From NCBI GenBank assembly GCA_947561585.1, contig CANNZV010002597.1, forward strand, positions 62,001 through 126,000: 64,000 nt of DNA, in the 5' to 3' direction. Position numbers and translations under genes: made by a program. The DNA comes from Caprella mutica (lineage: Eukaryota > Arthropoda > Malacostraca > Amphipoda > Caprellidae). The notes under the pieces were generated by a model. The model saw nothing but the letters and a program-made list of their open reading frames with translations. It did not search any database and was not told where the DNA came from. This document shows, in pieces, positions 17,601-62,600 of this stretch. The first letter of the stretch is position 1; the number at the start of each line of letters is the position of its first letter.

Positions 17601-20600
17601 TTGATTAATTAAAACTCTGCCATAACTTTGAGTTATTGATCACCTATTAAGGTGCCACATCCAGATAGGCTAGTAATAAATTATTCTACAAATTTTTTCG
17701 GGTTTTATGATAAAAAAAACATGAATAGTACCACTTCACCAAATGATTCCAATTCACATGTTACATACGAGATGAAACAAACGGTCTCTAGGGAAAAAAA
17801 AAGATTTTGCAGAATGAGTAATAATTAAAATCATTTATAGAATGATTAATGACCAATCACTAAATAGAAACAAGGATTGTTAGGTGCAGCTCCACTTCAT
17901 GAATAACTGACTTTTATAGAATCAAAAACTGTGCAATTTCATAATTCGAACAATTTTGTTTATTCGAGCAATTTGATAATTCGATCAATTGTTCGTTCGA
18001 GCAATTGTTTTTTCGATCAATTGTCTTTCGAGCAATTGTTTTCGAGCAATTTACCGGCTACAGGATCTATCGAACTGTAGATCTTTTACTCTAAAATGTT
18101 GGATAGATTCTTTACTTTTTCCCCTTTAACTTCCCCCACAGAATCGTTCATTTGTCCCCCCACCCACCACAAGTGTCTCAGTGGTCCTTGCTTGGACCAA
18201 TCCCGAGTGTGTGACGGACGGATAGACTGTCCCGACTCTTGGGACGATGAGGATCAATGTCGTGAGTAATATTGGGACAATGTCGTAAGCAATATTGGGA
18301 CAACGTCGTGAGTAATATTGGGACAATGTCGTGAGTAATATTGGGACAATGTCGTGAGTAATATTGGGACAACGTCGTGAGTAATATTGTATTGGGACAA
18401 TGTCGTGAGTAATATTGGGACAATGTCGTGAGTAATATTGGGACAATGTCGTGAGTAATATTGGGACAACGTCGTGAGTAATATTGTATTGGGACAATGT
18501 CGTGAGTAATATTGGCACAATGTCGTGAGTAATATTGGGACAATGTCGTGAGTAATATTGGGACAATGTCGTGAGTAATATTGGGGCAATGTTGTGAGTA
18601 ATATTGGGACAATGTTGTGAGTAATATTGGGACAATGTTGTGAGTAATATTGGGCAATGTCGTGAGTAATTTTGGGACAATGTCGTAAGTAATATTGGGA
18701 CAATGTCGTGAGTAATATTGGAACAATGTCATGAGTAATAATGGGACAATGTCGTGAGTAATATTGGGGCAATGTCGTGAATAATATTGGGACAATGTCG
18801 TGAGTAATAGTGGGACAATGTTGTGAGTAATATTGGGGCAATGTCATGAGTAATATTGGGACAATGTCGTGAGTAACATTGGGACAATGTTGTGAGTAAT
18901 ATTGGGACAATGTTGTGAGTAATATTGGGACAATGTCGTGAGTAATATTGGGACAATGTCGTGAGTAACATTGGGACAATGTTGTGAGTAATATTGGGGC
19001 AATGTCGTGGGTAATATTGGGACAATGTCGTGAGTGATATTAAGACACTATCGTGAGTTATATTGGGACAATGTTGTGAGTAATATTGGGGCAATGTCCC
19101 ATATAAATTAAATATAAATAAATCTGCTGTTTATTTAATAAGAAATTTACAATTGCATCGAAAACGTCTATAAATTTTTGATTAAGTAGAATCAGTTAAT
19201 AAATGTTACTTTCACATTAGTTTATTTTGGTTAAAAGATCCAATTCCGTTTATATTTATTAAATTATTACTTCAACAATACATTAATATTATATATGTAT
19301 TAATAAAGTAAAAAACTATAATAAAATAGCCTGAACCTGTATCATGGATAGATTTTAATAAGATTATATCCTATTATATAATATTAAAATCTAAATAAAT
19401 ACATGACATTAATTTCCTTTTCATCTCTTTCAAATATCAAATTTTTCATGAGTTCATTTTTAATAAAATCTTCTTTTCGATTCCAAAGAAAGTTTCAAAG
19501 AATATTTTCTTAGCTGAAATATTTCAATGTAACTCATTATAATATTGTAAGAAGTGATGCAAATAAATGTTATTCTACACGAATAACATTTATAGTCCTA
19601 GGATAGTAGGGGAATATACCAGGAATGAATCTCTTTTCGCTAGGAAATTCCCTTTATATCCCAGGAATAAATCCTTACTTCCAGGACAGTTGGTGACTAA
19701 TAGAAAATTATTGCAGTTTTCAGTTAAAATACCTTAGGCAAATAACACTCTTTTATTTTAATTAAATTCCACCTCTTAAGATAATTTAAGTGTGGCACTT
19801 AAAAGTAAGAGAGAGTTAAGTTATCATTGTTTTTGAGTGCATTAATCAGTGTAAAACTTTGGTCATTATTTTTAAAATACATTAAATTTACCGTTTGTTT
19901 CACTTTACTCTCTGAAACTAGTTTTGAAGATAGTGAAATATATTTACTTAATTTTATCGTATAAAATTAATAAAGTTTCATTGTTGATAATGTTTAAATT
20001 TACAATAAAATTATTGCGTAAATTGAAGTTAATTCCTTTGGTAATTGCAGTAAAAACTTCATTTAAAACTAATTCTATAATAGTTAATCTAGAAAATAAG
20101 ATAATAAGATCTATAGATAATCTAGATAATAAGATCTAGATAATCTAGATAATAAGATAATAAGATCTAGATAATCTAGATAATAAGATAATAAGATCTA
20201 GATAATCTAGATAATAAGATAATAGATCTAGATAATAAGATCTAGATAATCTAGATAATAAGATATTAAGATCTAGATAATCTAGATAATAAGATAATAA
20301 GATCTAGATAATCTAGATAATAAGATAATAGATCTAGATAATAAGATCTAGATAATCTAGATAATAAGATCTAGATAATATAGTATAAATTCTATGGTAG
20401 GTATAATATTTTTTTTGTGTCCGATCAGAAATACCTGAATGAAGTAACTTTAGTTTATTTATTTATTTTAAAGGTCATTTTTTTGTCAGAGATTCACTTG
20501 TGTGGTCAATTAAAATATTTATTCAATGTGAAATACTGTAAATGATTTCTATAAATAAAGATAAGATTTTATTTAATTTTAAATTAAATTTTATAGTTCA

Positions 20601-23600: not shown

Positions 23601-26600
23601 CACGACGTTTAACCCCTACTAAAATATAAATATATCTTTTAGCACATATTATCGTACAGAATAATATCTACACTAATACTAATACTAAGTATAGTAATAT
23701 AAATTTTTCCCGCATAGCACAGTCAAGAGAAATTAATTTTTATGTTTGCATATTCATTTATTCTATCTCTAGAATATTCACATTTAATATAGTCAATATC
23801 GATGGAAAAATCATTTTTGGAGCATATTGATAATATTTGTATATTGAATATTCATAAGTAAGAAAACAAGCATTTAGAATCATAGAACATTTAAATATAT
23901 ACAGAATAAATTCTGTATATATTTAATGCAAACATATCGTCGACAAATATTCTTATAGTTGTTATTGACATAAATGAAGATCATTTAATATATAATAATA
24001 AATATAGACACTTACAAATAAAGATTGTCTTAAAACTTAATGAAGATAGACGGTATGTAGTTTGTTGTCACTTCATGATTGTTTAATGACCTGGCAGGGG
24101 GGGGGGGGGGGGAGGGAGGGAGGCATGCCCATGATACACAATTAGACACAAATTAAAGTGTGTTAACGTCACATTTGGGAAAATTCGTCGGCGAAAAGTC
24201 TGTCGATAAAAAGTCCTGTCAACCAGTATTGGGACTAAAAATTAAAAATACTTGTCAACTTTATATAGTATTTCTATCGTAGAGATTACTATTGTTGATT
24301 AAAACTTAAAAATATTATTGTACTCCTCCCTAACTCCTCCCTATCTCCTCTACAACTCCTCTATAACTCCTCCCTATCTCCTCTCTAACTCCTCTCTAAC
24401 TCCTCCCTATCTCCTCTTTAACTCCTCCCTATCTCCTCTCTAACTCTTCTATAACTCCTCTCTCTCTCCTCTCAGTTTTCAGGTGTTCCTCTCTAATTCC
24501 TCTCTCAACTCTCAGCTTTCAGGTGCTCCTCTCTAACTCTTCTCTCTCCTCTCATCTTTCAGGTGCTCCTCTCTAACTCTTCTCTCTCCTTTCAGCTTTC
24601 AGGTGCTCCTCTCTTACTCCTCTCTCTCTCCTTTCAACTTTCAGGTGCTCCTCTCTAACTCCTCTCTCTCCTCTCAGCTTTCAGGTGCTCCTCTCTAACT
24701 CCTCTCTCTCCTCTCAGCTTTCAGGTGCTCCTCTCTAACTCCTCTCTCTCCTCTCAGCTTTCAGGTGCTCCTCCTCGGCTCCTCTCTGTTCCTGTCATCA
24801 CATTACAGTGAATTGTTCCGGTTTGAGACTCACGGAATTTCCTGATGTTGAGCCACAGATAACAATGTTGTGAGTCAATGTTGAATGTTGTGAGTCAATG
24901 TTGAATGTTGTGAGTTAATGTTGAATGTTGTGAGTCAATGTTGAATGTTATGAGTAAATGTTGAATATTGTGACTCAATGTTGAATGTTGTGAGTCAATG
25001 TTGAATGTTGTGAGTCAATGTTGAATGTTGTGAGTCAATGTTGAACGTTGTAAGTTAATGTTGAATGTTGTGAGTCAATGTTGAATGTTATGAGTCAATG
25101 TTGAATATTGTGACTCAATGTTGAATGTTGTGAGTCAATGTTGAATGTTGTGAGTCAATGATGAATGTTGTGACTCAATGTTGAATGTTGTGAGTCAATG
25201 TTGAATGTTTTGAGTCAATGTTGAATGTTGTGAGTCAATGTTGAATGTTGTGACTCAATGTTGAATGTTGTGAGTCAATGTTGAATGTTGTGAATCAATG
25301 TTGAATGTTGTGAGTCAATGTTGAATGTTGTGAGTCAATGTTGAATGTTGTGAGTCAATGTTGAATGTTGTGACTCAATGTTGAATGTTGTGAGTCAATG
25401 TTGAATGTTGTGAGTCAATGTTGAATGTTGTGAGTCAATGTTGAATGTTGTGAGTCAATGTTGAATGTTGTGAGTCAATGTTGAATGTTGTGAGTCAATG
25501 TTGAATGTTGTGAGTCAATGTTGAATGTTGTGAGTCAATGTTGAATGTTGTGAGTCAATGTTGAATGTTGTAGAATATTTCAAATAATCTTTTTGTTCAT
25601 ATTTTGTTACTGAGATTCTTCACATGTTTTTTTATCCCATTTCCTGTTTTTCTCCATTCTCTTTTCTTTTCTTTAGTTTCTAACAATATGCGGATGTTAT
25701 TTTTATACCAGTTCACAGAAGTGTGTTTCATTGATATTTATTCAACAAAAGATATCAATGTTTATATAAGCTTAGAGGGGTGATATTTCTGTAGCTTCTA
25801 CTATAACTTACCAAAGCTACGTATCTTTTATTAGTAAGCTATCTGACAGAAGTAGAAAAATAGACACAGGTTGTTGATAGCAATTGTAAATGTAAAATAA
25901 AATAGTAGAATGAATAGAATTTCAAGGAAATTTTCAACAGAACAAAAAAGTGATTCAATGTTGATGTACTCTGTGTTCCATCAGAAGCGTCATTTTTAAA
26001 TTACAAATTGAGAGAACTTAAAATGCTTCAAATCGTATTGTGTTTGTATAAGCTATTCTGATTGTAAAGTGTGGATTTTTATCACACTGTGGAAATTTGA
26101 ATGGATATTCAATGTAAACCCTACTCAACATGAAAAATATTTCAATCTGAAAGAAGTACTTTTGTCTCCATCAAAAACCTCATCGAAAAAACGACACTGT
26201 GTAGACAAATGAAAATCCTCCAAATATTCGCAAAACAAAATCTTTGACAATGATGACAACTTGTTATCAGTTAATGGTGTTTCATACCTCAGATTGTGCA
26301 AGTATATTGTTTATCCCGGGCTGTGCCATTCTCTAAATCGTTTTTCAAGTTGGTGAATACAAGCTCCACCACATTGCACAAATGAAGCTCCAAAATTTAT
26401 CGATGAAAAGTTTGGATGTCGATTCAATAGCAGCAGAACGGAAAATCCCTGGTCAACACACAATCCAGATCCCAACCATTTGGACTATCACTTCTGGGCT
26501 GCTGCACAAATTCGAGTTAATAGATGAAAATCAGATTCCATTGAGTCTCCTATATACAATGTGTTGAAAGCTTCGACGATGAATAATATTACCAGTTACT

Positions 26601-29600
26601 CTCAATAAAGTTTACAACTATGTTCTGAAGCATGCGTCGTCCTGTCTTCAGACTGGAGGGGGTCATTTTCAACAACTTTGTATGACCATAGGAGATGTGC
26701 CTCATACGATATGCCAGGATATAGGACAATAAATGTTTAATAATCCTTGAAATCCAATCTTTTTCTTTATAGTAATGCATCTTTAATGGAATTTGAAGCG
26801 TTTTAAGTCCTTTTGAATTTAAAAATGACGTCTCTGATGAAACACAGTGTATATCTACATTGATTTATTATGGTGACCGGACAACTCGCCGTCGGACAAC
26901 TTGCTGCCAGACAATTCGCCGTGGATAATTTGCCGTGGGGACAACTCGCCGCTAGGACAATTCATCGCCAAAACAACTCGCCGTGTGATAATGTTTTACC
27001 GCCGTATACACAATTTATTTATAAAAAATATTTTAAATATTTGCTGCGTGTTGTAAATTTTATCTATCAAATTTTCTAAGTAGTATTTGAAAATGTTTTT
27101 TCCATTTCAAAAGTTAAAAAAAGTTGTTCATCTCTAATTATATAGACATATAATCATAGTGTACGTATGTTGTAAATTAACAATAAAAAATTTTTCGTTC
27201 TATTTGAAAGTATTTTGATAAAAATAATTCGCTATTGGAAAGAAAACAAGTTCATGTGTCTTCTTTATACGTTTGATGACCTGTAAAAATTACTATAGTT
27301 TAAAATTGAGCGTGCATTTATTTAACTACGAAATTTTAGATTTTTGTCTTTAGGTAGGCTAATAAGTTACATTTACTATCACCTCTTCATTTTCTCTTCT
27401 ATTCGTGAGTGCAATCACCTGTGCTTCTGTTCCTTTTCTTATCATTCCTTGGTAAGAAATTACATCCACGAAGTAGCTTTTCCGCATACATAAGAATTGT
27501 CGCATAGTAGTGGTTAGTGCCTTTGTTCAAGGAGTCACTTTGCTTTCTGACTTCTTTCTTTTCTGTTCATTGTATTCAATTTCCTTTTGAATTCAACTAG
27601 AAAGCCGTTACGTTAAACACTTCTAAATTTGAATTAATAGCATTGATATTTTCTGTGGCCTGAAATATTCTCACAGATAGAACAAAATAAACTAATTAAT
27701 TGAAATACTGAAATTTGTCGGCTACAGTTTTACGTTAGTCTTGAGCGTATAGATACAAATCTTTGTTCAAATTTATAATATTTTTAAATATATGTAAATG
27801 ATGTATACGACGGCAAAACAGAAATCGCGCGGCGAGTTGTCCTGGCGGCGAATTGTCCTAACGGCGAGTGGTCCTCCAGGTGAATTGTTCGCGGCGAGTT
27901 GTCTGGCGGCGAATTGTCCGGTGGCGAGTTGTCCTGTACGTACAGGGAAAGATTTCAATTTTGAAACTATACCTTACACAATATGTATCAAAATAGAAAG
28001 AATGACGGAAAGTCGGAATGACGTGCAGTTGAAATGACGGAAAATTGAAATGTCAAACAATTTGGATGATGATTTTTTCAATTATTTTTTTTTTTAAAGC
28101 TCAAAGAATTTGAAGAATCAATTTTATTTCAGTTTTTCCAATTACAGACTAATTTTAATTTTTTAAGCATTAATGTATTTGTTCCTCTTTTCTGTTTGTT
28201 TCAGTGAAATGTCACATAATTTTCTGGGAGAATCTTTGGCCAAAGGAGGAATAAACTGCAGATCCAACCTGATATACCTGTGAGTGAAGTACACACTGTG
28301 AGTGAAGTACACACTGTGAGTGAAGTACACACTGTGAGTGAAGTACACACTGTGAGTGAAGTACATACTGTGAGTGAAGTATACACTGTTAGTGTGAAGT
28401 AACCAGCGGGGTTCCACAGGGATTGGTCTTTGGTCCACTACTCTGTATCATCTACATCACCGAGTAGGATTTCATAATTCGCTGACGACACGAAGATTGG
28501 CATCAACGCCGCGAATTCAGCTACGTCAGAGTCAGAGAACTCCAGGAAGACCGGTTGAGAATTGGAGACTAGTCGGATACGTGGCAGATACCTTTTAACG
28601 TAAATAAGTGTAGAGTGCTCCATGAGGGTTCTCGGAACCTTGAAGCCAACTAAACTTTTCTTGGGACCCCTATTATGCCTACTGATGAACAATGATCATA
28701 CCGAATTAGGGAAACTGTACTCACCCTCTATATTCTATAACTCCCATGTAAGACCAATACTGGAGTATGCGGTCCAGTTCTGGTCACCGACAATGCTCGC
28801 AGATGTCAAGCAACTGGAACAAGTACAAACTCGGGCCACAAAGCTTGTGCCAGAAATCCGCTTCAAGGGCTCTTTTAAAAGACGCTCGGTTGACTTTTTT
28901 AAAAGACGCCTGGACGTGAATCTCTCTGAGCTTGATTGCTGAGCTCAGTGTTTATCTTGACCTCTTGTTTTGACCTTTTCTGAGCTGGATCAGATGTGTG
29001 GCTGCTGGCAGGTTCTTTCTGTGCACACCCAGACTTCACCTTTGCCCCTTGTGTCTACCTGGTGTAGAACACACATTCTGCTCTTCTATATTTAATGAGA
29101 TAACCTAGCACTATTACGTGGCGAGAGAGATCAAGTCACACCCTGCGTCCTGTCACCGTCTCAGGGACTACCTTCGTGCAGCCCCTGTGATGGTGGCAGT
29201 GACTGCCGGGGGTGACTGACCAAGTCCGATAAAACTTGCAGTAGCCTATGATTGCACCCAAACTGTTTTCCTACTCATGGTGGAGGTTCTTCTTTCATCA
29301 GGTTTGGGAGTACGGTTTGGAGTGCATAGGCTCCAAGGGGGAATTGATGAAGAGAGATTCACCATGCTCCGTTTGTAAACCAACGTTGAGCAGCACATCT
29401 GGCTGTGCCCAGGGGCCTTCCTTGGATAGGCATATTGTTTTTTTATAAGGTCCCTTCATCCCTATGACACTTTGTGAGTGCGAAGTACTCACTGTGAGTG
29501 TGAAGTACACACTGTGAGTGTGAATTACACAGTGTGAGTGTGAAGTACACACTGTGAGTGTGAAGTACACACTGTGTATGTGAAGTACACATTATGGGTG

Positions 29601-29609
29601 TACAATTTC

Positions 29610-29652
<43 letters not shown>

Positions 29653-32600
29653 TTTGCTTATACATTTTATACATTAAAATATAAAATAAACAAACAAGCT
29701 CAAATGATACCAAAAAGGAAATGAATCGGGATATGTTTTTTATAATCGAAATTGATCAATAAAATATATGGACATCTCCCCCCCCCCCTACATTCCTGTG
29801 CTAGGACAACTCGTCTTCGGACAATTCGTCGCTGATTGAAAATTGTTTTGTAATTATACTTTTATTTTTACTGAACTGGTCATGATCGCAAATATAAAAA
29901 TAAATCAATATTTCATAATCTCATATATGGCATAACAGGAAAACTAACTATTAACTAACATTGCTATATTATAGCAAAAAAAATTAAAATTAATGTATAA
30001 ATTCATTGAAACAAGACTATACTGTAACACAATGTTAATTCCGTTCTCTCTTTGTAAACAGTACAAACATTTTTTTCATTATTGCCATGTCTATTTAAAA
30101 ACAAAAAAGTAGCAAATTATGTTAGAAATTTGCAAACTTTAGGCAACAATATTTCAGATTTGAGATATGAAAATTAAAGAAATTTAGTCAAACTTATATA
30201 TTGTGAGTAACGGCCTTCAATTAAATTATTTTATTATCTGCATCGTTATTGCTGATCACATTTAGGATATGTTTATTCATATCCCCGTATTTTTTTCTGA
30301 CTGATTTTGGCACATTGAAAATGTTGTCTCTTTTTAGTATAGAGAGATTTTCTCCTCTTTTTAAAGAAACATCAACGAAAAAATATTTGGATGAATATAT
30401 TATTTCCAAAGAAATATTTGGATGAACCATTCAATAACAGGTGGAATGATAGTTACTATCATTTTCAATAAAAATGAAATTATAATTGAACGTATATAGT
30501 AATTTTATTTGTAACTATCATTACATTATAAAGAAAAGTGCTCCATACCAACCACTGTCACCAGTTATATTTATATTATAAATTATATTTTTAATCGGTG
30601 ACGAATTGTCCGGAGACGAATTGTCTGGGGATGAATTGCCCGGACACCCTCCATTCCTACCTTTCTCCCTATCTTCTTGCTGCAATTATTTATTTTCATA
30701 ATATACAAACAATTCATAAGCGCATTGGTATATATTTCCATTTATAATAATTCCATTAGTTATTTGAAAGGTATTACATAATACAATATTCATAATGCAC
30801 TGAAAGAATACTTAATTAAAACAGAATAGCTAAAATTCATGAATTACTAAATAATCTCATAGTAATTAACTTATTCATAATTATGCATGACATGTATCTT
30901 TTTATTTATGATATAGTTCATTTACTAGGTTTATTTATATTTTATTAATAAAAGATTTTTTGAGTTTTGCTAATAATTTTGTTTTCTCCCAAGCGATTTG
31001 TCTTTCAATGACATCGAAAATATTTCTCCGGGTGGCTTCAATCAGCTGTGGAGACTCAAAATACTCATCCTAAGCCACAACAACATCACCAGCCTCAAGA
31101 AAGGGGGCTTTGAGGGGTTGTTAAGCCTCAGAACACTGTGAGTAAAGGGGCTTTGAGGGGTTGTTAAGTCTCAGAACAATGTGAGTAAAGGGGCTTTGAG
31201 GGGTTGATAAGCCTTAGAACACTGTGAGTAAAGGGGCTTTGAGGGGTTGTTAAGCATTAGAACACTGTGAGTAAAGGGGCTTTGAGGGTTGTTAAGCCTT
31301 AGAACACTGTGAGTAAAGGGGCTTTGAGGTGTTGTTAAGCCTCAGAACACTGAGAGTAAAGGGAATTTGAGGGGTTGTTAAGCTTCAGAACACTGTGAGT
31401 AAAGGGGCTTTGAGGGGTTGATGGTGTTATATTTTTGTAATTTTTTTTTGGCTTTATTTGAAAACTGCATCAGAGTCAGACTCTTAATTCCGTTACGTAT
31501 CGCTTTATTGTGAAGTATTTCCATAATAAAAAAACTGTTACATAAATAAACACTAGATAAACAATTTTGAGGAAATCCACTTTAATTGGGAAGAATGCCT
31601 GAATGTCAGCCATATTGAAGTGGGGAGATACGAACTCTGTTCTCCCTCGATAGCGATATTCTATCAGGAGTATCGATAGGACGGACCCGCTAAGTGAAGT
31701 GAGTTAAGATGAGCCTTAACCAGCTAGGAGAATAGAAAGTGGGAGCTTATCTGCAGACCATCTGATTAGGCTTGATAGACAGAGGTTACGAATAAGTTTA
31801 AGAATGGTGGGTGAAAGTTGCAGATTTGTCTCTGTCGACCAACATCTGAAAACTTACAAACTAGAAGGGAATGGAGGTTCAAGTGGTTCCTCGGTTCTAG
31901 GAAAATTCCACTGATGAGAGTTCCACTGCGGAAGATTCCACTGGGAAAATTGCACTGAGGAAAATTCCACTTGGAAAATTCCACTGAGGAAAATTCAACT
32001 GAATATAAAACATTACTTGGTTTAATAAAATGTAAGTGAATCTCATTATATAAATTTTCTTAATGTATATTTCTTTGTGCAACACATATACAAGATATGT
32101 AAGGAAAAAGCATTGCTAAGCTTCTTCTACTGAGATTAAGATAATTCTACTTAAAAAACTATTAAAGAAATTTTATTCATTCTCTTGTTCCGTAAATCTT
32201 ATAATAATTAAGTTAATTTTCATTCCGAAGGTAAGTTCAAATAAAATATGTGTTAGACGAGACGATAAAGTTTGTAACAAAAAGAAAATGAGCACAAAGA
32301 GTACAATCAGTTTATATGTATATTAATGATGAGGGCAAATTCTACAATTTAAACATGTTGAAATATAGTAACAGCAATAAAACAACAATACAAAATAATA
32401 TATTAATGTAAGGCAGAGGTGGGCAAATGGAGCACCCCAGTGCTCTTGTGGCACTCAGAGCAGCACTCGTGCCCTCCAGGGAAACGGTGCTTTATTTTAT
32501 TTCAAAGAAAATTTAGAGTTTTTATCCCTTAATGCTTTATAAATTACAATGATAATATAGAAGAGGATGGTCAACTAATTGAAGAAGAAGTAATTTGTAA

Positions 32601-35600
32601 TGACCTTGATACTTTGATAGTCAATTTTATCCATTAATAAGGTATTTTTTGTTCATTGGTATTGTACTGCTAGTGATCAAAATTTTTACCTCAGGTTTTT
32701 TTTTTCTAGATCAGTTATTTGTATATTTTTCATACGTTTATCTAGGGTCACTCTAACACTGGTAAGAATTTGTTCCATCATTTTTAAGTCTCTTTTTTTA
32801 ATAAGTTAGGTAGCCCTTGTCATTTATCCTGTGATTTTACGAGTTACCTATTATCACTTATGCAAGATAATTAATTTTTTGTTTTTATTATGAATTTTTT
32901 TTGTGATTAAATATCATTTATTAATTCCTTTTAATGCAAATGATAAATCTACTCCCAATATTTATGTGCAAAATATGAATCATTTTACGTACTTCAATAA
33001 AATAAACCACCTCATTTTAAGAAAATGGTAAAAGCACTGAAATTTCGTCTTTCGGTACTGAAAAATACAATGTGTGCCCAACCCTGATGTAAGGCATTCG
33101 CTATATCTTGTTCAAATATTGATCCAGTTCAATCTTGATATAAATTTCCGTTTTGAAATCCACACACTAATCGTTTCAAGCGTGAGTCAATAGCCTCGTA
33201 TTTATATGAAAATTATATTTTCAATGTAAGCTATGTGCTATATATTTTAGGAATATTAATCCATTTTCGTCTTGATATCTAAGCAAGAAATTAAAATTTA
33301 AACCTTTACAATTACATCATGAAAAGAACATAAATAGAATAATGTAAGAATAGAAGTTGCACAAAAAGGTTTCACACAAATAGAGTTCAAATTTCCATAG
33401 CCTTATTGGTTAAAGAAACTATGCTACACTCTTCTAGTATAACATTGAACAGAGATAAATAATTATTTTAATGAAATAAACGTTTCCTAGCTATCAACAT
33501 ACTGGAAGAGTATCACCTGCTCGGCTAAAGTAATTTATCAAAATATTTTTTAGACTGCCATTTGGACGGAACAGTATTATTTTTGAAAATAGTGAATACT
33601 GCATATCATTTTTCCAATGAAATACTAGGAAAAAGTTCCTGGTTGATTTTTAAATATTGGATACTGTTTAGTGGAATTTTCCACAGAGCAATTTTTCCAG
33701 TGGAACTTTCCGCAGTTGAATAGTCCTCAGTGGAACTTTCCGTAGTGTAATTTTCCCAGTGGCACTATCCGCAGTGAAATTTTCCTCAGCGGAATTTTCC
33801 GAGCATCGGTTCCTCATTTCTTTTGTTTGATGATAAACAAGTTAGGTTCACGTAACGATGCGCAATGTACAGTTTTGCAAATCAAATGAGTCAGGTTCAG
33901 TGTCCAAGCCAGGATTCCGTAGGTTTTACGTACAGACCGGGATTCTGTATGTTCCTCCATGAAGAGTGTAGACAAACTTCATAAACAATGCATTTAAATA
34001 CTATAAGGCAATTTCTCTTTATTCTATTATTTCATGTTCAGATATGTAAGAAGTAAATATAATCAACATACTTACAATAGGATATTAATTAATAATTGCT
34101 ATGTTCTAATTCTAAAAATTATTTCAAATTTAATTTGCAGACACCTGAATGGGAACCAAATTCGAACGTTGCACCCATATTCTTTTTATGGTCTTGCCAC
34201 TTTGCCTCAACTGTGAGTATAGATAAAGCTAGTAGCGTCAACGCGGGCATTACCCCGCACTTAGTGAACAAGTCCAATTATCTCTAAAACTATTACAGAT
34301 AAAGAAGATCTGTAGGATACTAAAGAAAGAAGTAGTCACCTATTTTATACATTCGAAACGGCTTAGCCCTATAACCAATGAGTTTATAGTTATTCAACTT
34401 TTTCTAAAAAAAATTGCTACCCTAGCAAACCGAGCAATAATTCCGCACCATTCAGGGCATTATCCAGCACTGCAGGGTAATGATCTGCAAATTTAATTTG
34501 CAGACACCTGAATGGGAACCAAATTCGAACGTTGCACCCATATTCTTTTTATGGTCTTGCCACTTTGCCTCAACTGTGAGTATAGATAAAGCTAGTAGCG
34601 TCAACGCGGGCATTGCCCCGCACTTAGTGAACAAGTCCAATTATCTCTAAAACTATTACAGATAAAGAAGATCTGTAGGATACTAAAGAAAGAAGTAGTC
34701 ACCTATTTTATACATTCGAAACGGCTTAGCCCTATGACCAATGGGTTTATAGTTATTCAACTTTTTCTAAAAAAAATTGCTACCCTAGCAAACCGAGCAA
34801 TAATTCCGCACCATTCAGGGCATTATCCAGCACTGCAGGGTAATGATCTGCTTCACTTCAAGCAATATCCTGCATTGCAGGTTAATGGCCTGCAGCCCTA
34901 TTAACTTGGAAACTAATAGATCAATCCAAATTGATCTATCAATCCAAATTGATCATCGTAAAGAGCAGCTTCTAAACTCTTAGAAACAATGTTTAAAGTA
35001 CGCTAATACAACACTAGGAAATAGCGTCATGTGTTTGAACAAGAAAAACCTATGAAAGTTAAGAGGCTCAATATTGAGCCACCTGAAAAAATAATATTGA
35101 GCCACCTGAAAAAATAATATTGAGCCACCTCAATATTGAGCCACCTGAAAATATAAATCGCGCATAATTTACTATTACGAAAAAGTTAAAAGATAATTCA
35201 AATGTTTCACAAACATCAGAAAATAGTTTTCTGTGAAGTCAGATTCACGTTACAGACAAGAACTTATTTTATATTACGTTTTTTGTTGGTGCATAAATAC
35301 TCCTGCATAATAAAAGTTTAGGCAGGCATCTTTTCACACATATGTATGTACAAACCCTACACACTGTATGTATACACGCTACATAATTATCTTTGGTTAT
35401 TATATCTTATCATGCTCAAAATTCAACATTTTATTGTGCTGCATATTTTTTTTACATGCCGGGGAAAATGGGGTAGCGGGGTAATGCCAGGTGCGGGGGA
35501 ATTACCCGCGTTGACGCTACTACCAAGGAAAAGTTACTATCTTTATTTATCTAATTTACTTCATACACACAGAGAAAGGATTAGTTGAATCAAATCATAT

Positions 35601-47600: not shown

Positions 47601-50600
47601 TGACTCTTTTCTCTGATAGTACATCATCACAGTGACTCTTTTCTCTGATAGTACATCATCACAGTGACTCTTTTCTCTGATAGTACATCATCACAGTGAC
47701 TCTTTTCTCTGATAGTACATCATCACAGTGACTCTTTTCTCTGATAGTACATCATCACAGTGACTCTTTTCTCTGGTAGTACATCATCACAGTGACTCTT
47801 TTCTCTGATAGTACATCATCACAGTGACTCTTTTCTCTGATAGTACATCATCACAGTGACTCTTTTCTCTGGTAGTACCTATTTCATGTTATAGTAAATC
47901 CTATTTCAAACTGGTTAAAATTACCTCAAAATAAGTAATACTTATCGATGTGACAGCTGTAGAAATATTATGGAGCTATTTTAAGCGGCTTATATAACAC
48001 TCTACTTCCAGAGAGAAACTTATTGTGGGGCCATAGAAGATTGAGAGATTGTTCTGAATCTTCTATAGCCTCACCTAAACTTTCTCTGTGGGATAATTTC
48101 TATTTATTGTTTTTATCTTTTCGTTGAAGTAATTGATATTTTTTTAATATAATAATTATAAATTATAAGTACTATTCTATAGTTCAATGATGACCAACAA
48201 CTAACAGTTATGACTCATTCGAGTATCGTTCGTCAAATTTAAGAACATTCAAAGTATAGCAAAGTTGAATATCTTCACAGCTATAAGGTCCTTCACGTCC
48301 AACACCATCAATTTGTCTTTCAAAATGTGAACACTTGAAAAAGATCCATCAAACCTAATTGTCTTACATCCTATGATAATTTCACCTCTTTGATTAGTTT
48401 ATTTTTTATTATTTCAATAGATGTAGATGGAGTTAGAACACACAGAAGCTCATAAGTGTAACATTAAATATTTATTTCAATTGACACTGATATCTTAAAC
48501 TCCATATTTTGGAGTCTGTAAAAAGTATGTCTATATACTGATTTAACTACACAAGTTCCGCAGAAGCTAATTGAATGATGAATATAAATATATTAAATCT
48601 CTAACTCAGTTACAGAAATATATATGAAAATTTACTGAATCATTCATAACCCCAACAAAAAATTTACTTTCACCAATCAGAATCAACTACAGAAACTGAT
48701 GCAGTTCTCAACAACCAATCAGAACCCTCAATACATAAGAACTTAATCTCCTAAGCCAATAGAGGCTTAGCGATGATAAATGATTGGAATCAAACCTTAG
48801 AACTTACGGATTAATGACTTCAGAATCACCAAACTGAGAGAGTCTTAGAGATCGAGAGGCTCTTACAAATCATAACTATCATTTCAATCATACTCAATTA
48901 CAAGGAAAAATAGGAGAATGGAGGGGACTTATATAAAACATCAATAGATACAGTACAACTCCTCTGTAATGAAGTCCTGTGCAGTCAACCAGCCTGATTT
49001 TTCGAGTTCTGAGAAAGGAATAATCATTGAATAAACGTAGTCTACCTTAATTTGGCCAGTTTCCTATACATCTCTCAAATCCTCTAGAAAGCTCTTTATA
49101 GTGACTTAGCTTAACCCTAATTAGTTTGACGGGTGTTTTCTAAGAACATCCTTTTTAAATTACTATATATCTTTCATGTCATTCCTCAGAATTTATTGGC
49201 CTTTCTTGACTTTGTTCTTACATAAATATCGAATATATTTTTGTATTTAAAAGTAAAAAATTATTTACGTATCGGCGTAAATCACGTAAATTAGGAAATT
49301 AATTGTAAAGTGGTGACGTGTGGCAACCTAGAAATATAGCTTGGCACCCGCTAACACACTACAGTCAACGTTTTCAAGGAGAACACACACATTTGCGATC
49401 TGTGATTGCGTTACATTTCACCCAATCACAGCTCTGTTCTCTCAGTTGCCAATGCCTTATAAACGTAAGTATTTATATCTCCTCATTTGTTCAATAATTT
49501 TATAGAGTTCCGTTGGTTTATAAATAAGACATCTATTTTTAAACACATTGTCAAACCTTCGATACCTTCTGAACGTCAAACTCATTAGGGTTAAGTTCAT
49601 TATAGAAGAATTGTACTGCACTTGTTTAAAGATTACATCAAACTTTTAGTGAAAATATATGTACTAACCTTTCATGCTTCATTATACATCATTAACTAAT
49701 AGTCATACACTTTTTGGATCTAGGAATTATGCTTTTCAATATAATGGAACCGCGGCAAAAATTACAGTTTGATGGATAAAAAGTCAGTTGTACCGCTAGA
49801 TGGCGTTGATACAGATTTGTTGATAGATATCATGAGCCAAACGTGACAAACGCACTCATGTTGTTGGACGTAATCACCGCTAGATTGCGTATTTATATAA
49901 TTAATTATGGCTTTCGAAAATCAAATACTTCGATAATATTATGCTTTATATTTTTATTCAGTCAAAGTATAAATGGTTGAGTCATTGTCTCCTTTTCTCC
50001 CCCAGAGTCCTGAGCAATAACCTCATAGAGACGATGGAGGCAAAAACTTTCCTGGGATTGAATTCACTTCAAGTGCTGTGCGTATATCCAGATCTTCTTA
50101 AATAATAAGTCTATATTATGAGGATTTAAATACTACAAACTATTTAATTTACCATGTTTTATTTCTATTCTTATTTCTGGTACTCATTTCTCAAAAACTC
50201 AATTTTCAGAGGAATTGATAAGAATCCTCTGAGCAGGTTGGACAGAAGAGTTTTTCAGCCAATGCCTCTCCTCAGCACAATGTGAGACAAGTACTTATAT
50301 GGGGGGAACATTTTAATTTATGTTTTCAAACCTAAACTTGAAGATAATTGGTAACCAATCTTTCAAATATCTCGCGTAAAAAGATGCTGTGCCTATCACC
50401 TAATTTACATACTTATTTGTTTATTAACTTTTCATCTAATTAATTGAATCGTAACTTTTTTTTGTACTACTCATTTCAATGAACTTTGGAACAATAAATA
50501 CGCTTATATGTTATGTATGGTGTGCGGAAAGTTCACCGCTCTCAATTCAACGCTGGCAAGTTCACCGCAACTCAATTCACCGCAAACAATTTTATTCAAT

Positions 50601-53600
50601 ACATAACAGAAATACAAGAAAACTAAAATAAAACAAATTTATCAGCAACTAAATAGACATCAATTACGTGAAAAATACAGGCTTATTACAGATGTAGTTA
50701 CACGTCTCATTGAATATATAATATATAAAGCTTTTATAATCAAAGAAAATATAAAGGGACAGGAATATTGAAATAATATAACTGGATCCAATAAAATTTA
50801 TATTTTATATAATGATTGTTGCCTCGATAATAATTCTCTGGGGTAGTATTTGGTTATATCTCATCAATCAATACAAATTTATATAGGCTATACTGACATA
50901 AAAATTACGAAATGTCACAAGCAACTATATTCCAAGGATTTTGAAGTAAGTAGTTTTTTTTATTTAGCTACAATAAAAGCAAATATCAACATAAATATTG
51001 ACAGAGTAATGTTGTGCAGTTGAGCCGTAAAAATTAGCTATCTTATAATAATTAGATATCAGTACTCACGACTCATAAGTAGGTATTGAAAAAGGAGAGA
51101 AATGTGTTAAGTTCCATTCACTATATAATGTTTACATTATAGCACATGCATGAAAGCGTAAATAATGTTTAAAAGGAGTCTCATCTACGTGTTAAAAATA
51201 AGTTTATGGAAACTACCTGTTAAACTTAAGAGCACAAAATAAATCCAATTTTCAAGTTTCAAAATTTAAAGGAATATCAACCACGCGGTGAATTGAGTTG
51301 CTGTGAACTTACCCTGATGTGAATTAAGTGCAATGAACTTTCCGGCTGTAAATTGAAGGCGGTGAACTTTCCTGTAATCGTTATCTATCTAAAGATTAAA
51401 ATAAAAATCTCCAACATGAAGTGAATCGTTATCTCTAGTTACCTCATTTTTAAACTCGTACTAATAACATAGGAATATTTCACCAATAAAAGCAGTCTCT
51501 ACTTTACCGGTTTATTATTAATTTCAATAATCTGTATTGAATGTAAATAGATATGAAATGAAACTATGAATGTTCTTTGTATGAAATTAAGAATGTCCCT
51601 TGTGAAGCTCATTCTGGTGGAATACTATTTGTATCTTCTTAAATGAATTAGTTTTGCTTTTTATTGCCTTCATTATACATTTTTTATGAGATATCAATAG
51701 CTGTTTCGTAACATTAAGTATATTTTTTCGTTGAAATCATTTATTTCATCAAAAATTCAGTTCGGTTGCACGGGGTATTTAAGTTTTATATTCACTATCA
51801 CAACAATATGTACTAGGTTTGTAAATAGTGTGAAAGAAAATATATATAGAAATCAAGAAGCTGTCAGTTTTGAAAATACTATTACATGATGATGATTATT
51901 TTGTTACATACTATCATGAATGATAAATGAAAGAATAAATTTGCTATTAAATAAGACTGTTGAGACATCTAGACTACCAATGATATAATTTCCTAGGATA
52001 ACAAACATGCACAGGATACTATTTAAACAAAAGTCAAAAATTTGAGTATAACCTCTTTACCCATTTTATTCCCTGTTCCAGTGGCGCCCCGTCGTGGCAA
52101 TGGTGCTGCCTCGCCACTCACATCGACAACTGCAAACCCACAGACGAGTTCTCCTCCTGTGAAGACCTCATGAGTAACTACCTCCTCAGGATCTGCATCT
52201 GGTTACTGGGACTCTTATCGCTCATAGGGAACACCTTTGTGATTAGTTGGCGACTCAGCCACCACAGTGGCAGTAAGGTGAGTGTTCAGTCACCACAGTG
52301 GCAGTAAGGTGAGTGTACAGTCACCACTGTGGCAGTAAGGTGAGTGTACAGTCACCACAGTGGCAGTAAGGTTAGTGTTCAGTCACCACAGTGGCAGTAA
52401 GGTGAGTGTACAGTCACCACTGTGGCAGTAAGGTGAGTGTACAGTCACCACAGTGGCAGTAAGGTGAGTGTTCAGTCACCACAGTGGCAGTAAGGTGAGT
52501 GTACAGTCACCAATGTGGCAGTAAGGTGAGTGTACAGTCACCACATTGGCAGTAAAGTGAGTGTTCAGTCACTACAGTGGCAGTAAGGTGAGTGTACAGT
52601 CACCACTGTGGCAGTAAGGTGAGTGTAGAGTCACCACAGTGGCAGTAAAGTGAGCGTTCAGTCACCACAGTGGCAGTAAGGTGAGTGTACAGTCACCATA
52701 GTGGCAGTAAGGTGAGTGTACAGTCACCACAGTGGCAGTAAGGTGAGTGTTCAGTCACCACAGTGGCAGTAAGGTGAGTGTTCAGTCACCACAGTGGCAG
52801 TAAGGTGAGTGTTCAGTCACCACAGTGGCAGTAAGGTGAGTGTATAGTCACCACGGTGGATTTTAAGTAATTTTCTGAAGTGTTTCTCTCTGTTGTTTTG
52901 TTTTATAATTGACTCGTTATTAATAACGGTTCTTGTCAATACCATTTTCAGATTAATAGAATACAATGGTACAATAATATACAATGGAATATTCAATATC
53001 TGCGGTAAATATTTTTTGTATTGCGATCCTTTGACCTCAATTTGCATCGAATAATATTCAATAAACTCATATTCCAAATCATTTGTTCATTGGCACAAAT
53101 AGTGAGGATTGAATTACTGACCCCGTCCACATGGGGAAAAATTGGAGCCAATTAATGACAGAGAACAAACTGAGGAATATTCCAATGGTATTCCCTTACT
53201 ATTTGGAATATTCCAATTGTATTCCCTTACTATATGGAATATTCCAATTGTATTCCCTTACTATCGGGAATCAAAGGCTTCTCGTTTGCAGTTCTACTAC
53301 AATGACTCTTATTGAGTTTCTCAGTCAGAATATATTGGGAATTGGATCTTTGAACTGTGTGGAAGGATATAAGTCGCTTAATGAATTGTTCATCACCATA
53401 TATATATTATTAATTAATAAACGTCGCCAAACCTTCACGAATTGTAAATGACGAATGGTGATGACGATATAGGTACTATGACTTTATCTTCGGTTTTATC
53501 TTTAATATTTAGAATTATTATAGTAATATGAGGCAAACCCAAGAAAATTTGATCTGCCTATTTGTTTGAAAATTGGTCAAAAGATCAAAAGCAATTTCCA

Positions 53601-56600: not shown

Positions 56601-59600
56601 TCATCGAAGCGGGCCTTAAAATCAACACACCGGAGTACTTGAAAATTCTGAAAGATGTTTTGATGCCGTGGATACGTAGGAACTACGACCCCTTCAAAGT
56701 GATGCTCGTTCAAGACTCAGCGCCCGCGCATGGAGCAAAGAAAGTTCAGGATTTCCTGAAGGAGAATCTTCCTTTGATGGTCCCGAAGGATATTTAACCA
56801 GCAGCTCCCCAGATCTGAATGTTTGTGACTATTGGATGTTTGGCGTCATTGAGGGAGAGTCTAACGTAACTTCACATCCAAGTGTCAACTCTCTGAAGGC
56901 CGCCAATCGTCGGGCATTTCGTAATCTTGACCCCGAGGATGTAAAAAGGAGTTGTTCACGGTTTCGCTCGAGAATCTCCCAAATTATTGACGCAAAGGGT
57001 TGTCACATAGAATGATTTTGTTCTGTAGACAATAACGAACAAATAAATGCAAGTAAAAATTACATTTAATCATTATTTGCCTTTCAAAATAGCGAATTTT
57101 AAAAAAGTTATGTTAGTCCCAATTTAGCTGCACGACCCTGTATAATGAAGTAAGCTCTATATAGTGACCTTTAGTTGTAGTTCATTATAGAGGAGATCTA
57201 CTGCAGTATTCCTAGATGTTATTACATAAATAGTATTGACGGGGAAATACGGACTTGATGTTCGTGTCATGCATATGTATAAGTACATTCAATACAGAAA
57301 ATAGGTAGAATTGTTTCCTTATTTATTTATTTTTCTCTTCACAGCCTCACTCGTTCCTGATCATCAACATGGCGATGGGGGACTTGTTGATGGGGGTGTA
57401 TCTACTCATCATAGCGGGTGTGGATATGCATTACCGGGGCATGTATGAGGTCAGTGGGGTTTTACCGGGGTATGTATATATGATGTCAGTGGGGTTTTAC
57501 CGGGGTATGTATGAGATTAGTGGGGTTTTACCGGGGCATGTATGGGGTCAGTGGGGTTTTACTGGGGCTTTTATGAGGTCAGTAGGGTTTTATCGGGGCA
57601 TGTATGAGATTAGTGGGGTTTTACCGGGGCATGTATGGGGTCAGTGGGGTTTTACCGGGGTATGTATATATGAGGTCAGTGGGGTTTATCCGAGGCTTGT
57701 ATGAGGTCAGTGGGGTTTTACTGGGGCTTTTATGAGGTCAGTGGGGTTTTACTGGGGCTTTTATGAGGTCAGTAGGGTTTTATCGGGGCATGTATGAGAT
57801 TAGTGGGGTTTTACCGGGGCATGTATGGGGTCAGTGGGGTTTTACCGGGGTATGTATATATGAGGTCAGTGGGGTTTATCCGAGGCTTGTATGAGGTCAG
57901 TGGGGTTTTACTGGGGCTTTTATGAGGTCAGTGGGGTTTTATCTGGGCATGTATGAGATTAGTGGGGTTTTACTGGGGCATGTATGAGATCAGTGGGGTT
58001 TTACAGGGGCATGTAGATTGTGGAATAAACGTAAAATAATTAGGAATGAATGAATATGAGTTAAACTTTGACATCATTTAATTAGTTTTCTGTTTTGAAT
58101 GGAAGAGAAGAGGGGTGGAATCGTTTGTAATTTGGATTATGTTTTATATTACTATGTTTATCATTTTTTAAACGCTACCTGCAGTTTTAGAGGATAGCGC
58201 TAGGGTTACGAGGCCATATAGTTTATTTTAGTTAGGCTCGTAAACTTTATTTACTATCATCTCTTCATTTTCCTCTTCCGTCCATTAGTACAGCCACCGG
58301 TATTATTGTATCTCTTTTTTCTCACACTCCTTGTAAGTGACTGCATTCACGGAGTAGCTTTCTGTATTCCTTCACCACAGACTGGTAATAAATGACTTGT
58401 AGCCACTTTCCTTTCTGACTATTTTTCTATATTCCTTTTTATTAAATTGCCGTTATTTGGCAGCGATAATAGCCTTAAATTACAAAACAGAAGTTAAATC
58501 CTCTATTGAATATTTTATAGGAATTGACAAATTCATATTGAAATGTATTCCAATTTTGATAAAAGGAAATACTATAGCAGTGGAAAAATTCTAACTAAGT
58601 ATATTTCATCTTACCAATTGACCCATCTGACTACCAGTAAAGAGGTTCATATAACTAATACTTTTGTTATTAATGTTATTTTAAAATATTATTGATTGTT
58701 CTTGATGTTTCTAATTTATAACGTACCTATTTATTTATTTCAGGCACACGAGAAGTACTGGCGATCCTCAAACCTCTGCCAGTTTGCTGGATTCATAAGC
58801 ACTCTGTCAGCAGAACTGTCAGTTATAACTCTAACAGGTAACTGTCAGTTATAACTCTAACAGGTAACTGTCAGTTATAACTCTAACAGGTAACTGTCAG
58901 TTATAACTCTAACAGGTAACTGTCAGTTATAACTCTAACAGGTAACTGTCAGCTGTAACTCTAACAGGTAACTGTCAGTTATAATTCTAACAGGTAACTG
59001 TCAGTTATAACTTTAACAGGTAACTATCAGTTATAACTCTAACAGGTAACTGTCAGTTATAACTTTAACAGGTAACTGTCAGTTATAACTCTAACAGGTA
59101 ACTGTCAGTTATAACTTTAACAGGTAACTGTCAGTTATAACTCTAACATGTAACTGTCAGTTATAACTCTAACTGTAACTGCTAAAATCTCTTATTTTCA
59201 TTGAATTATTTGCTATGGATTTACAAGATAGGATTATGATTATGTTCCATTAATAGCAAAATAATTATTATAAAAGATTCAGTATAATAATATAATTTCA
59301 TTCGAAAATGGGTTGTAATTGATTCCAAATTAGAATCCTTTTCTCTTTTCCCAACCATTTCTAAAGTTTTACTTCTTCCAATCTCCCCCCAGTGATTACG
59401 GTTGACCGTCTACTGGTCATCAAGTTCCCTTTTGGTGAGCAGAGACTCAACATGCGAGTCACTGTGACTATCATGCTCACAGTTTGGGTTCTGGTGACTA
59501 CCCTCGCTGCTTTGCCTCTCCTGGACATCCCTTACTTCGACAACTTCTACGGCAGGTCAGGAGTCTGCCTCGCCCTTCACATCACCAGCGAAAAACCAAA

Positions 59601-62600
59601 TGGATGGGAGTACTCGGTCTTCATATTTCTGGGTGAGATTCAAAGAACATCTTTAATAGCCTGAGAGATGGCCGTAGAAGATTCTGGGGGCTTAGTTAAT
59701 TTTATATGCCTCACCTTATGAGATTGTTAGAACTTGGTTGAGATTGTTATAACTTGATTAAAATTGTTAGAACTTGGTTGAGATTGTTAGAACTTGGTTG
59801 AGATTGTTAGAACTTGGTTGAGATTGTTAGAACTTGGTTGAGATTGTTAGAACTTGGTTGAGATTGTTAGAACTTGGTTGAGATTGTTAGAACTTGGTTG
59901 AAATTGTTAGATATTATTTTGAAAATTTTGGGAAGCGGAGGTGAGAGAATGGAGAAAAAAGAATGCCAAACTTTCTTTCTTCCAATGCACTCGTATACAA
60001 ATTTTCCCTGTAAATCAGTATGATAAATTTTCTCAATACAAGGCATTTCTACAGTGCTTTTATCTATTTTCTAAGTTATTCTTGTTTGCGTGTTGGCAGT
60101 GATCAACCTGGTGAGCTTTGCGGTGATAGCGATGAGTTACGCACTGATGTACACCACCGCTAGACAGACCCAAAGAGACGCCAGGCGATCTTCAGCCACA
60201 GGATGGAGCACCGACCTACAGAGAGATCTGTCCCTCCGGAAAAAAGGTGAGAGTGAGGAGAGAAAAGAGGTTAGAGAGTGGAGAGAAAAGATGAGAGAGT
60301 GAGGAGAGAAAAGAGGTTAGAGAATGGAGAGAAAAGAGGTGAGAGAGTGGAGAGAAAAGAGGTGAGAGAGTGGAGAGAAAAGAGTGGAGAGAAATGAGGT
60401 GAGAGAGTGAAGAGAAAAGAGGTGAGAGAGTGGAGGGAAAAGAGGTGAGAGAATGGAGAGAAAAGAGGTGATAGAGTGGAGAGAAAAGAGGTGAGAGAGA
60501 GGAGAGAAAAGAGGTGAGAGAGTGGAGAGAAAAGAGGTGAGAGAGTGGATAGAATAGAGGTGAGAGTGGAGAGAAAAGAGGTGAGAGAGTGGAGAGAAAA
60601 AAGGTGAGAGAGTGGAGAGAAATGAGGTGAGAGGGAGGACTAATTGACATAATTTCACAGATCAACCTAGAACACCACAGTGTACCACCACGATGGGGCG
60701 GCGTATGACGCTTATAGTCGCCACTGACGCTGCGTGTTGGCTCCCGATCATAGCGCTGGGAGTGGTGTCGCTATGCGGAGTCAAAATACCATCTAAGGTC
60801 AGTTTATCGTTAGGGAAAAACACTTCTTTAAATTGAGTTGGTCGACGTACGTCTTTCATAAGCCAAATTTATTTTCAAATCTCAAATATGATTCAAATCA
60901 AGCTAATCATCAATAGCATATTTACCTCGTTAATATTTTATACGATGTTAAAAGTAGTCATTATAATTTAGGAAATGTTTCAGGTATTCTCTTGGATTGC
61001 TGTTTTCATCCTGCCTCTGAACGCAGCAGTCAACCCCATTCTGTACACCCTATCAACCTCCTCCGTCAAGAAAACCCTCCAAGAGGCGACTGATCCTTGT
61101 GGTTTCTGCTGTCACAAAAAAAGGAGCAACAGCCGGTCAACCTCCTGCATTTCTCGTGAGTTGGAATAATTGTTTTACACGTACATTCTGGATCAACAAC
61201 TTTAAATTATAAGCGAATAAATGCTATACGAAATTCATAATGAAAATTCATTCATCAAATAAAAAGATGTCTGAATTTTAAACATCAATTGAAATATTTT
61301 CACTACAAATTATTATAGATACCTTATGTATGTTTAAGTGGAGGAATTTAATTGAATATCGTGTCAGCAGGATACTTCGTTCCGAAATAGGTACCTACAT
61401 ATGGAAATGATAGCCTATTAATTAATGAACATTTCTATATCATGGAGAGTGAAATTCAATCATTAGGAGGACCTCTTAATTCTCTCCTATACTACAAAAT
61501 AGCTTTTTCTGAAGAATAACATGAGAGTGGTGACTGGGTAAACTAAGTTCGCTTGACTGCCTATAGGTCTAGGAATAGTGATGCCATTACCAAAGTATTT
61601 TAACTACTTAGTTAGGTAGGTTATAGCTAGCCGAACTTGGCAATAATTTCATTATTGGTTTGATACCTAACTACTCAAATTTAGTGAGCCTTTCTTTTTC
61701 TTATATTAGAAAATCGGACAGTTAAGGGTGAATGCGAATATTTCTTATATAATTAATTATGGAAAAAACTAAATAAACTTTCTGTTAACTATTATAAGGT
61801 AAAGAACCTAAATTCTATAAATAAAAAAGAGAGGATTAGTGAAATGTCAGCAGTCAACCACCCCCCCCCCCCCTCCTTCACTCTATATTTTTATCACGCT
61901 GTCCCTTAGAACTATTAGAACTAAGGTTACTGGTTACAAAACTGGAAACCATTTCAAATTTGGTTCTATAATTTTATTATAATATATAATTTAAAAAAAT
62001 TCCCGTTCTTTATTCAACCCTCTGAATTCCAAGCGAAGAAAAGGATAAATTGAATCTTGAACAAATCAAAACTACAGCAAAACTCCTGAGTTATGAAGTT
62101 TTTCGTTATGAAGCACTCGAGTAGTGAAGGACCTGAGTTATGAAATGCATCTGAGTTATGAAGTATTTTCTATATTTAAATTATCTCCCTCAAAAGTCAC
62201 AGTTTTCTCCGAGATTTTAATCATAGAAAACTATCAGTGTCCCTGAGTTATGAAGTAACCAATACTTCATAACTCAGAAGTTTCACTGTATAATAAAGCT
62301 TTTAGACATATTATAAATAAAAATGGTTTCCTATACCGGTATTTAAATACTATTACCCTAAAAATAACATTAGGTACCTAAAAGTGAACCTATATATCTA
62401 ATTACAATTAAATTTGCGATAATACGTGATAAGTTGGAATACAGTCTTGTTCATCTATTGAATGTTAGAAAAAGTGAAACATGAATGTGAACCCCATATA
62501 TAATTAATTATGAACAGAATACTTGATCGATTTCTATTCTGTTAATTAACTGTTATATCTTACGTAACCTTAGATCTACAAAATTAAAGCAATTACAGAT

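Follow-up and report, generated by a model that had tools for sequence, protein, structure and literature searches.

Minisatellites spanning 5′ splice sites of a GRL101-type receptor gene in the amphipod Caprella mutica

A receptor gene with arrays at its splice donors

The window analyzed here, a 64,000-nucleotide stretch of the Caprella mutica assembly (C2597:62001-126000, within a 903-Mb genome of 7200 contigs), carries on its forward (+) strand most of one GRL101-type receptor gene, with low-density-lipoprotein receptor class A (LDLa) domains, leucine-rich repeats (LRR) and a seven-transmembrane (7TM) region in that order. Nineteen exons were read, their boundaries being set from reading frame, splice sites and phase together with Pfam, which returned matches to Ldl_recept_a (LDLa), LRR_8 and 7tm_1. 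Four LDLa exons are followed by one for the LRR N-cap (LRRNT), six for the LRR (seven repeats), seven with transmembrane helices and a last one for the cytoplasmic tail. Splice phases are consistent across all 19 exons when the exon-proximal splice sites are used. The counts given below cover the 18 donors and 19 acceptors of these exons; positions are those of the window, on the + strand, and copy numbers are as assembled.

Relaxin receptor 1 is the top-scoring solved structure in a sequence search, and a 444-residue C-terminal query has as its top-scoring protein, at 58% identity, a GRL101-like receptor from a Cherax crayfish. On a tree of 29 rows (the window gene plus 28 proteins hand-picked from 120 listed matches) it clusters with four decapod GRL101-like proteins (support 100/99), on a long branch, a position that by this one gene points to a malacostracan crustacean as the probable host.

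What sets the gene apart is the location of its minisatellites. Tandem Repeats Finder (TRF), compared with the exon table, places 10 of the 18 donors inside an array: LDLa4, LRRNT, LRR1, LRR2-3, LRR4, LRR5, TM1, TM2, TM3 and TM5-6. An initial annotation, made from the letters alone, had described exons followed by minisatellites built from the splice site and the adjoining exon end. The junction arrays are real and nine donor minisatellites fit that description, but LRR4 does not: there a two-copy duplication takes in the whole exon. Units of the nine arrays are, in gene order, 23, 20, 18, 43, 61, 31, 31, 26 and 23 bp long, with a different consensus at each junction, and each joins the final 2-34 bases of the exon to the initial 2-33 bases of the intron. 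The view that separate arrays, each with its own unit (18-61 bp at donors), were seeded at separate donors is thus upheld.

The first two of these arrays follow exons LDLa4 (18142..18261) and LRRNT (24809..24869): the former has a 23-bp unit (7 exon + 16 intron bases) in 36 copies at 18255..19098, the latter a 20-bp unit (6 + 14) in 35 copies at 24864..25571. At LRR1 (28205..28279) an 18-bp unit (about 2 + 16) is repeated 6.5 times at 28278..28394, and a second part of the same array, with a 20-bp variant unit in 5.9 copies, lies at 29473..29591 (direct similarity 140 against a shuffled maximum of 18). Other sequence, about 1.08 kb long (28395-29472), lies between the two parts; with the array split in this way, an insertion probably followed its growth. 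Exon LRR2-3 (30994..31137) ends in a 43-bp unit (34 + 9; 7.4 copies; 31104..31420) and LRR5 (40307..40378) in one of 61 bp (28 + 33; 8.1 copies; 40351..40844).

The remaining four arrays lie in the transmembrane region. Those of TM1 (exon 52082..52277; array 52256..52859) and TM2 (exon 57345..57449; array 57431..58015) both have 31-bp units, split 22 + 9 and 19 + 12 between exon and intron and present in 19.5 and 18.5 copies, the TM2 array showing in addition a higher-order period of 159/190 bp. At TM3 (58744..58837) the 26-bp unit consists of 24 exon bases and just the GT of the intron (14 copies; 58814..59181). The array of TM5-6 (exon 60100..60246), with a 23-bp unit (8 + 15) in about 17 copies at 60239..60639, occupies almost all of its 414-bp intron. 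For LRR2-3, TM2 and TM5-6 the split of the unit between exon and intron was derived from the TRF array start.

The tenth donor is that of LRR4 (34141-34212), which lies within a 363-bp tandem duplication (34125..34851; two copies, 99% matches) that includes the entire exon and both splice sites. The second exon copy (34504-34575) might give the receptor one more LRR, or might undergo alternative splicing.

Two further ideas about the arrays were set aside: that they are coding sequence, since eight of the nine small units have a length not divisible by three, and that the donor arrays stem from a mobile element, which was rejected because every unit derives from the end of its own exon.

Acceptors present a different picture: just two of 19 lie within arrays, and one of these is that of LRR4, by way of the whole-exon copy. 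The other belongs to LDLa1 (11942..12061), across whose acceptor runs an 84-bp array of six copies (11485..11985; TRF, local alignment score 80) with a unit of 40 intron and 44 exon bases. Two exons had been said to be preceded by arrays. The 84-bp array is a true case, situated outside the interval to which the pattern had been assigned, but between the end of the CT-rich array ahead of LRRNT (24322..24773; units of 40 and 11/33 bp) and the acceptor there are 36 nt. Likewise, the proposal that about half of all junctions are affected describes the donors, but not the acceptors.

The other eight donors lie outside arrays by TRF. LDLa2 (12357..12476), LRR6 (50006..50077), LRR7 (50210..50281), TM6 (60661..60797) and TM7 (60984..61155) have none, and the donor of TM4-5 (59393..59632) is outside any array: a 20-bp array 87 nt past it (59719..59911) bears a faint likeness to the donor, with an alignment score of 22 that is within background. 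Downstream of LDLa3 (16666..16803) there is a two-copy 28-bp duplication (16806-16862) that starts at +3 from the donor and excludes the GT. The final coding exon (62760..63463) encodes the cytoplasmic tail and ends in TAG.

Excess over background, in this gene and in others

Minisatellites are abundant everywhere in this genome, and the relevant question is therefore where arrays begin. Our background sample comprised 20 stretches of 10 kb (bases 50001-60000 of large contigs taken at even number steps, C3 to C871, and hence non-random), in which arrays with a period of at least 10 bp and at least three copies were counted. These 200 kb contain 61 arrays (305 per Mb) that make up 19.7% of bases, or 15.5% without L018, a stretch that one array fills completely.

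By TRF, an array begins in the exon end, 0-60 nt upstream of the junction, at nine of the 18 donors. Under circular rotation of positions the mean is 0.82 donors, and nine were reached in 69 of 100,000 rotations, near-zero shifts included; random placement never did so (0 of 100,000). Local alignment, where a junction-spanning downstream copy had to score at least 40, likewise finds a strong copy at nine of 18 donors, LRR4 failing. Such copies occur at 274 of 20,000 sampled genome positions (1.37%) and at 129 of 10,000 positions within the gene's own introns, and the chance of nine in 18 at the 1.37% rate is about 7e-13. Applying to the donors the low-upstream-score filter used for the baseline leaves eight of 18, with LRR2-3 lost. 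A stricter test based on 14-mers also retains eight (LRR1 and LRR4 fail); it is passed by 1.02% of positions in the sample, by 1.47% of the GT[AG] sites there and by 13 of the 1351 intronic GT[AG] sites of the gene. By alignment, the rate at donors of this gene is more than thirty times that at other positions in its introns, a strong bias; the suggestion that duplication is focused on junctions is thus supported in part.

To what extent this extends to other genes was asked of the 7tm_1 family. From 148 matches 80 exon ends were taken; 59 donors were resolved by eye, the other 21 ends being excluded because they were unresolved or terminal, and of the 59 donors 58 were testable (the remaining one, L040, has just 38 nt of intron). 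Four of the 58 pass the alignment test. L103 is a textbook donor array, ...TTACAAG|GTGAGTGTTTAC, with a 20-bp unit and 14.8 copies before the stretch ends. L063 and L064 are related loci with a 50-bp junction unit (12 exon + 38 intron nt), and L039 has one degenerate junction-spanning copy, not an array. Together they form three groups of loci without obvious kinship. Two further donors, L062 and L100, look decayed by eye, with alignments within background. Against the 1.37% baseline, four of 58 gives P = 0.008. Donor arrays thus occur in several genes of this genome (L103 and L063/L064 among these receptor donors), probably more often than background predicts. TRF was also applied around the starts of 20 receptor exons and reported no array of at least three copies there, the acceptor being located exactly in some but not all of the 20.

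The L063 family offers a glimpse of how such arrays change. Its 50-bp unit is common to L063, L064, L108 and L099, on different contigs and in unequal copy numbers; L108 (a short array) and L099 (whose junction falls outside the stretch) are among the dropped exon ends and are left out of the counts. At one and the same junction there are 6.1 copies in L064 and, by eye, about 2-3 in L108, a difference that suggests turnover; the loci may be alleles or paralogues. L062, which is related to this group, has a different, 17-bp unit that starts at +7 from what is apparently the same junction.

Within this family the window gene is an outlier. By alignment, nine of its 18 donors are positive compared with four of 58 elsewhere (Fisher P = 1.4e-4); by 14-mer the figures are eight of 18 and three of 50 (P = 6e-4).

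Known systems and possible origins

The initial annotation regarded arrays at junctions as a pattern without precedent, a view that does not stand. Tandem repeats across exon-intron boundaries go by the name of mirages, reportedly given to them in a 2002 paper by Canestro and others. Mirages are described as minisatellites across exon-intron boundaries of amphioxus, named in Adh3 (PMC3087553) and found also in globin (BflGb6/BflGb9), troponin C and PGBD5 genes, with units of 10-72 bp in Adh3 and 150-160 bp in the globins (PMC3087553, PMC3902484). The two papers also report that copy number in a globin mirage varies between haplotypes of one gene and that the Adh3 mirage is somatically unstable (PMC3087553, PMC3902484). 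Data from Adh3 and reverse-transcription PCR (RT-PCR) on globins suggest that splicing is undisturbed, and mirages have also been put forward as a possible source of new introns (both PMC3087553).

The arrays of the receptor gene belong to this class. Their unit holds the exon end, the splice site and the start of the intron (at 10 of 18 donors), and as in amphioxus it is specific to the junction and of a length that depends on the locus. They are remarkable for host and density: a crustacean rather than a cephalochordate, and 10 of 18 donors in a single gene, whereas the amphioxus accounts consulted speak of a single boundary in each globin gene and of two repeats in PGBD5. By the same accounts amphioxus mirages occur at both 5′ and 3′ boundaries, whereas donors predominate here, and there is RT-PCR evidence that they are spliced normally, whereas here the only, indirect, indication is an intact frame and phase with the exon-proximal site. 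A literature search limited to open-licence papers found no report of mirages outside cephalochordates.

Two other phenomena are close. Intron gain by tandem duplication, as in the potato RdRp case (PMC3087553, PMC4974935), similarly involves a duplication that crosses or supplies splice sites; in the window no new intron is seen and the arrays adjoin existing splice sites, intron positions in relatives not having been compared. Ordinary intronic minisatellites, or variable-number tandem repeats, resemble the donor arrays in that unit length and copy number fall within the range of the other sampled arrays. The donor arrays differ in starting within the exon and repeating the donor, whereas the sampled arrays show no excess of the donor motif, although that test is weak.

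Whether the repeated donors do anything can be judged from how they decay. Counting over the nine small arrays, with the first, exonic copy removed, deviations from the consensus fall on 13 of 306 positions of the donor GT, 57 of 1376 of the donor 9-mer and 125 of 2836 of the rest of the unit. Donor bases thus deviate at about 4.2% and the remainder at 4.4%, and 9-mers placed at random are equally well preserved in 46% of draws. The donor copies look like neutral passengers, neither kept nor purged. Such neutral decay bears directly on function, and we met no comparable test in the parts of the mirage literature covered.

We place a probability of roughly 70% on the following account: these are mirage-type junction duplications in a minisatellite-prone genome, tolerated through exon-proximal splicing, with a mutational bias toward donors. 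A short stretch across the donor, comprising the exon end and the first bases of the intron, would be duplicated in tandem, and the duplication would then expand by slippage or unequal exchange, as other minisatellites here seem to. The spliceosome would take the exon-proximal donor, leaving the mRNA unaffected; arrays would lie on the intron side because it is the exon-proximal copy that is spliced and the array is hidden from selection. Duplications that span an acceptor would more often alter the mRNA and would presumably be lost, and the asymmetry between donors and acceptors is proposed to arise because this neutral filter removes them. The filter leaves the more than thirty-fold excess of donors over introns unexplained, and a mutational bias to donors is therefore needed in addition, one that would be strong in the window gene and weaker in the other receptor genes sampled. 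R-loops or nicks, linked to transcription at G-rich donors, are a speculative source of such a bias.

Several observations weigh against this account. The units of the 61 sampled arrays are not enriched for the donor motif (14 observed, 13.1 ± 2.9 in shuffled units), nor are they at higher cut-offs (7 versus 8.7, 6 versus 5.3 and 3 versus 3.7), which beside the four of 58 receptor donors makes a mixed picture. The motif test is insensitive, however: the window's own 32 arrays yield 13 against 8.0 at the lowest cut-off and 5 against 5.1 at the next. Upstream of the donor-like sampled arrays, none of seven candidates was clearly coding by eye, and the sample gives no sign that donor arrays form much of all minisatellites. 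The donors from outside the window are a small sample from a single domain family, and the tests on L063, L064 and L103 had just 48-82 nt of upstream sequence. Their excess is modest once relatives are counted once: three of about 48 (P = 0.028) by alignment, and two of about 40 by 14-mer, which is not significant (P = 0.06-0.12). Here "about 40" (of the first 50) and "about 48" (of all) are numbers of independent donors after duplicates had been grouped by eye. Finally, a donor rate of 7-8% predicts 0.02-0.05 genes like this one per assumed 20,000, and there is something gene-specific in the extreme density of the window gene that is left unexplained.

This last point is the starting place for the strongest rival, in which a germline process acting at nascent donors (through transcription, R-loops or spliceosome-linked nicks) makes hotspots only in germline-transcribed genes. 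The contrast with other receptor genes in both tests argues for it, as do the 10 of 18 donors against two of 19 acceptors and the fact that G exceeds C on the sense strand in eight of the nine array units. The donor motif is itself G-rich, however, and duplication extends beyond donors, as can be seen from the copied LRR4 exon and from the array at the LDLa1 acceptor. We regard such targeting as possible, though distinctly less probable than the mirage-type account. A broader conjecture, to be held just as tentatively, is that minisatellites in this animal are born at 5′ splice sites: a process in the germline, acting at nascent or transcribed donors, would duplicate the junction several times as often as intron sequence, and donors would in general be mutational hotspots for tandem duplication where genomes are rich in minisatellites, across unrelated phyla. 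If so, array formation would serve as a record of germline transcription, gene by gene.

A simpler rival dispenses with junction bias: minisatellites arise throughout the genome, and when many genes are looked through, one in which a large number of arrays straddle donors will turn up by chance. The extreme background (305 arrays per Mb), the lack of donor-motif enrichment among sampled arrays, the non-significant 14-mer excess at other receptor donors with relatives counted once and the choice of this window for being striking all lend it some weight. Nevertheless, nine of 18 donors at a rate of 1.37% is too improbable even across all genes, rotation yields a mean of only 0.82, and other receptor donors are above background by alignment under both ways of counting. 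We consider chance unlikely.

It is less likely still that the arrays are kept by selection for redundant donors, the repeated 5′ splice sites (U1 sites) securing the splicing of long introns or blocking premature polyadenylation. The raw material is plentiful: donors with no more than one mismatch number 33 in the LDLa4 array and 30 in that of LRRNT, and seven of the 10 introns with arrays exceed 2.5 kb. Yet the GT and the donor 9-mer have decayed at the same pace as the remaining bases of the unit, and use of a downstream donor is expected to shift the frame for eight of the nine small units, their length not being a multiple of three; together these are evidence against selected spare donors, which the initial annotation had offered as one reading. 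Moreover, arrays are also present in short introns (414 and 555 bp), and one intron of 4.2 kb has none.

That the assembler produced false tandem copies is very improbable, for although minisatellites are difficult to assemble and one amphioxus mirage was seemingly misassembled in a draft genome (PMC3087553), the copies carry point differences from the consensus (about 4%), the exons are intact and related loci on other contigs share a unit at differing copy numbers.

A dense case from a crustacean in whose genome 15-20% of sampled bases are minisatellite suggests that duplications across donors may arise quite generally as a side effect of rapid minisatellite turnover. The gene also provides a test bed for two questions: how the spliceosome chooses the right donor among thirty near-identical ones, and whether tandem duplication has mutational hotspots at splice donors.

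Other repeats in the window

Not all repeats in the window are connected with donors, and some of the non-donor arrays look element-borne. Five pairs of short arrays are arranged as inverted repeats (9277-10079, 17154-18051, 26878-27936, 31899-33801 and 38124-38595), with pair-specific basic units of 15-16 bp and members 0.26-1.7 kb apart; they look like foldback-type elements with minisatellite inverted ends. By eye only, similar pairs can be made out around 50.5-51.3 kb and 54.1-55.4 kb.

A satellite with a 32-bp unit is present at 5285-6433 and 47182-47878, in opposite orientations, and again on another contig (L026, 438-840). Its occurrence at several places and in both orientations indicates that the array has been dispersed, perhaps carried by a mobile element. 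The intron between TM1 and TM2 contains a transposase-like frame (55983-57020), open for 189 aa and then broken, which by eye only is mariner-like.

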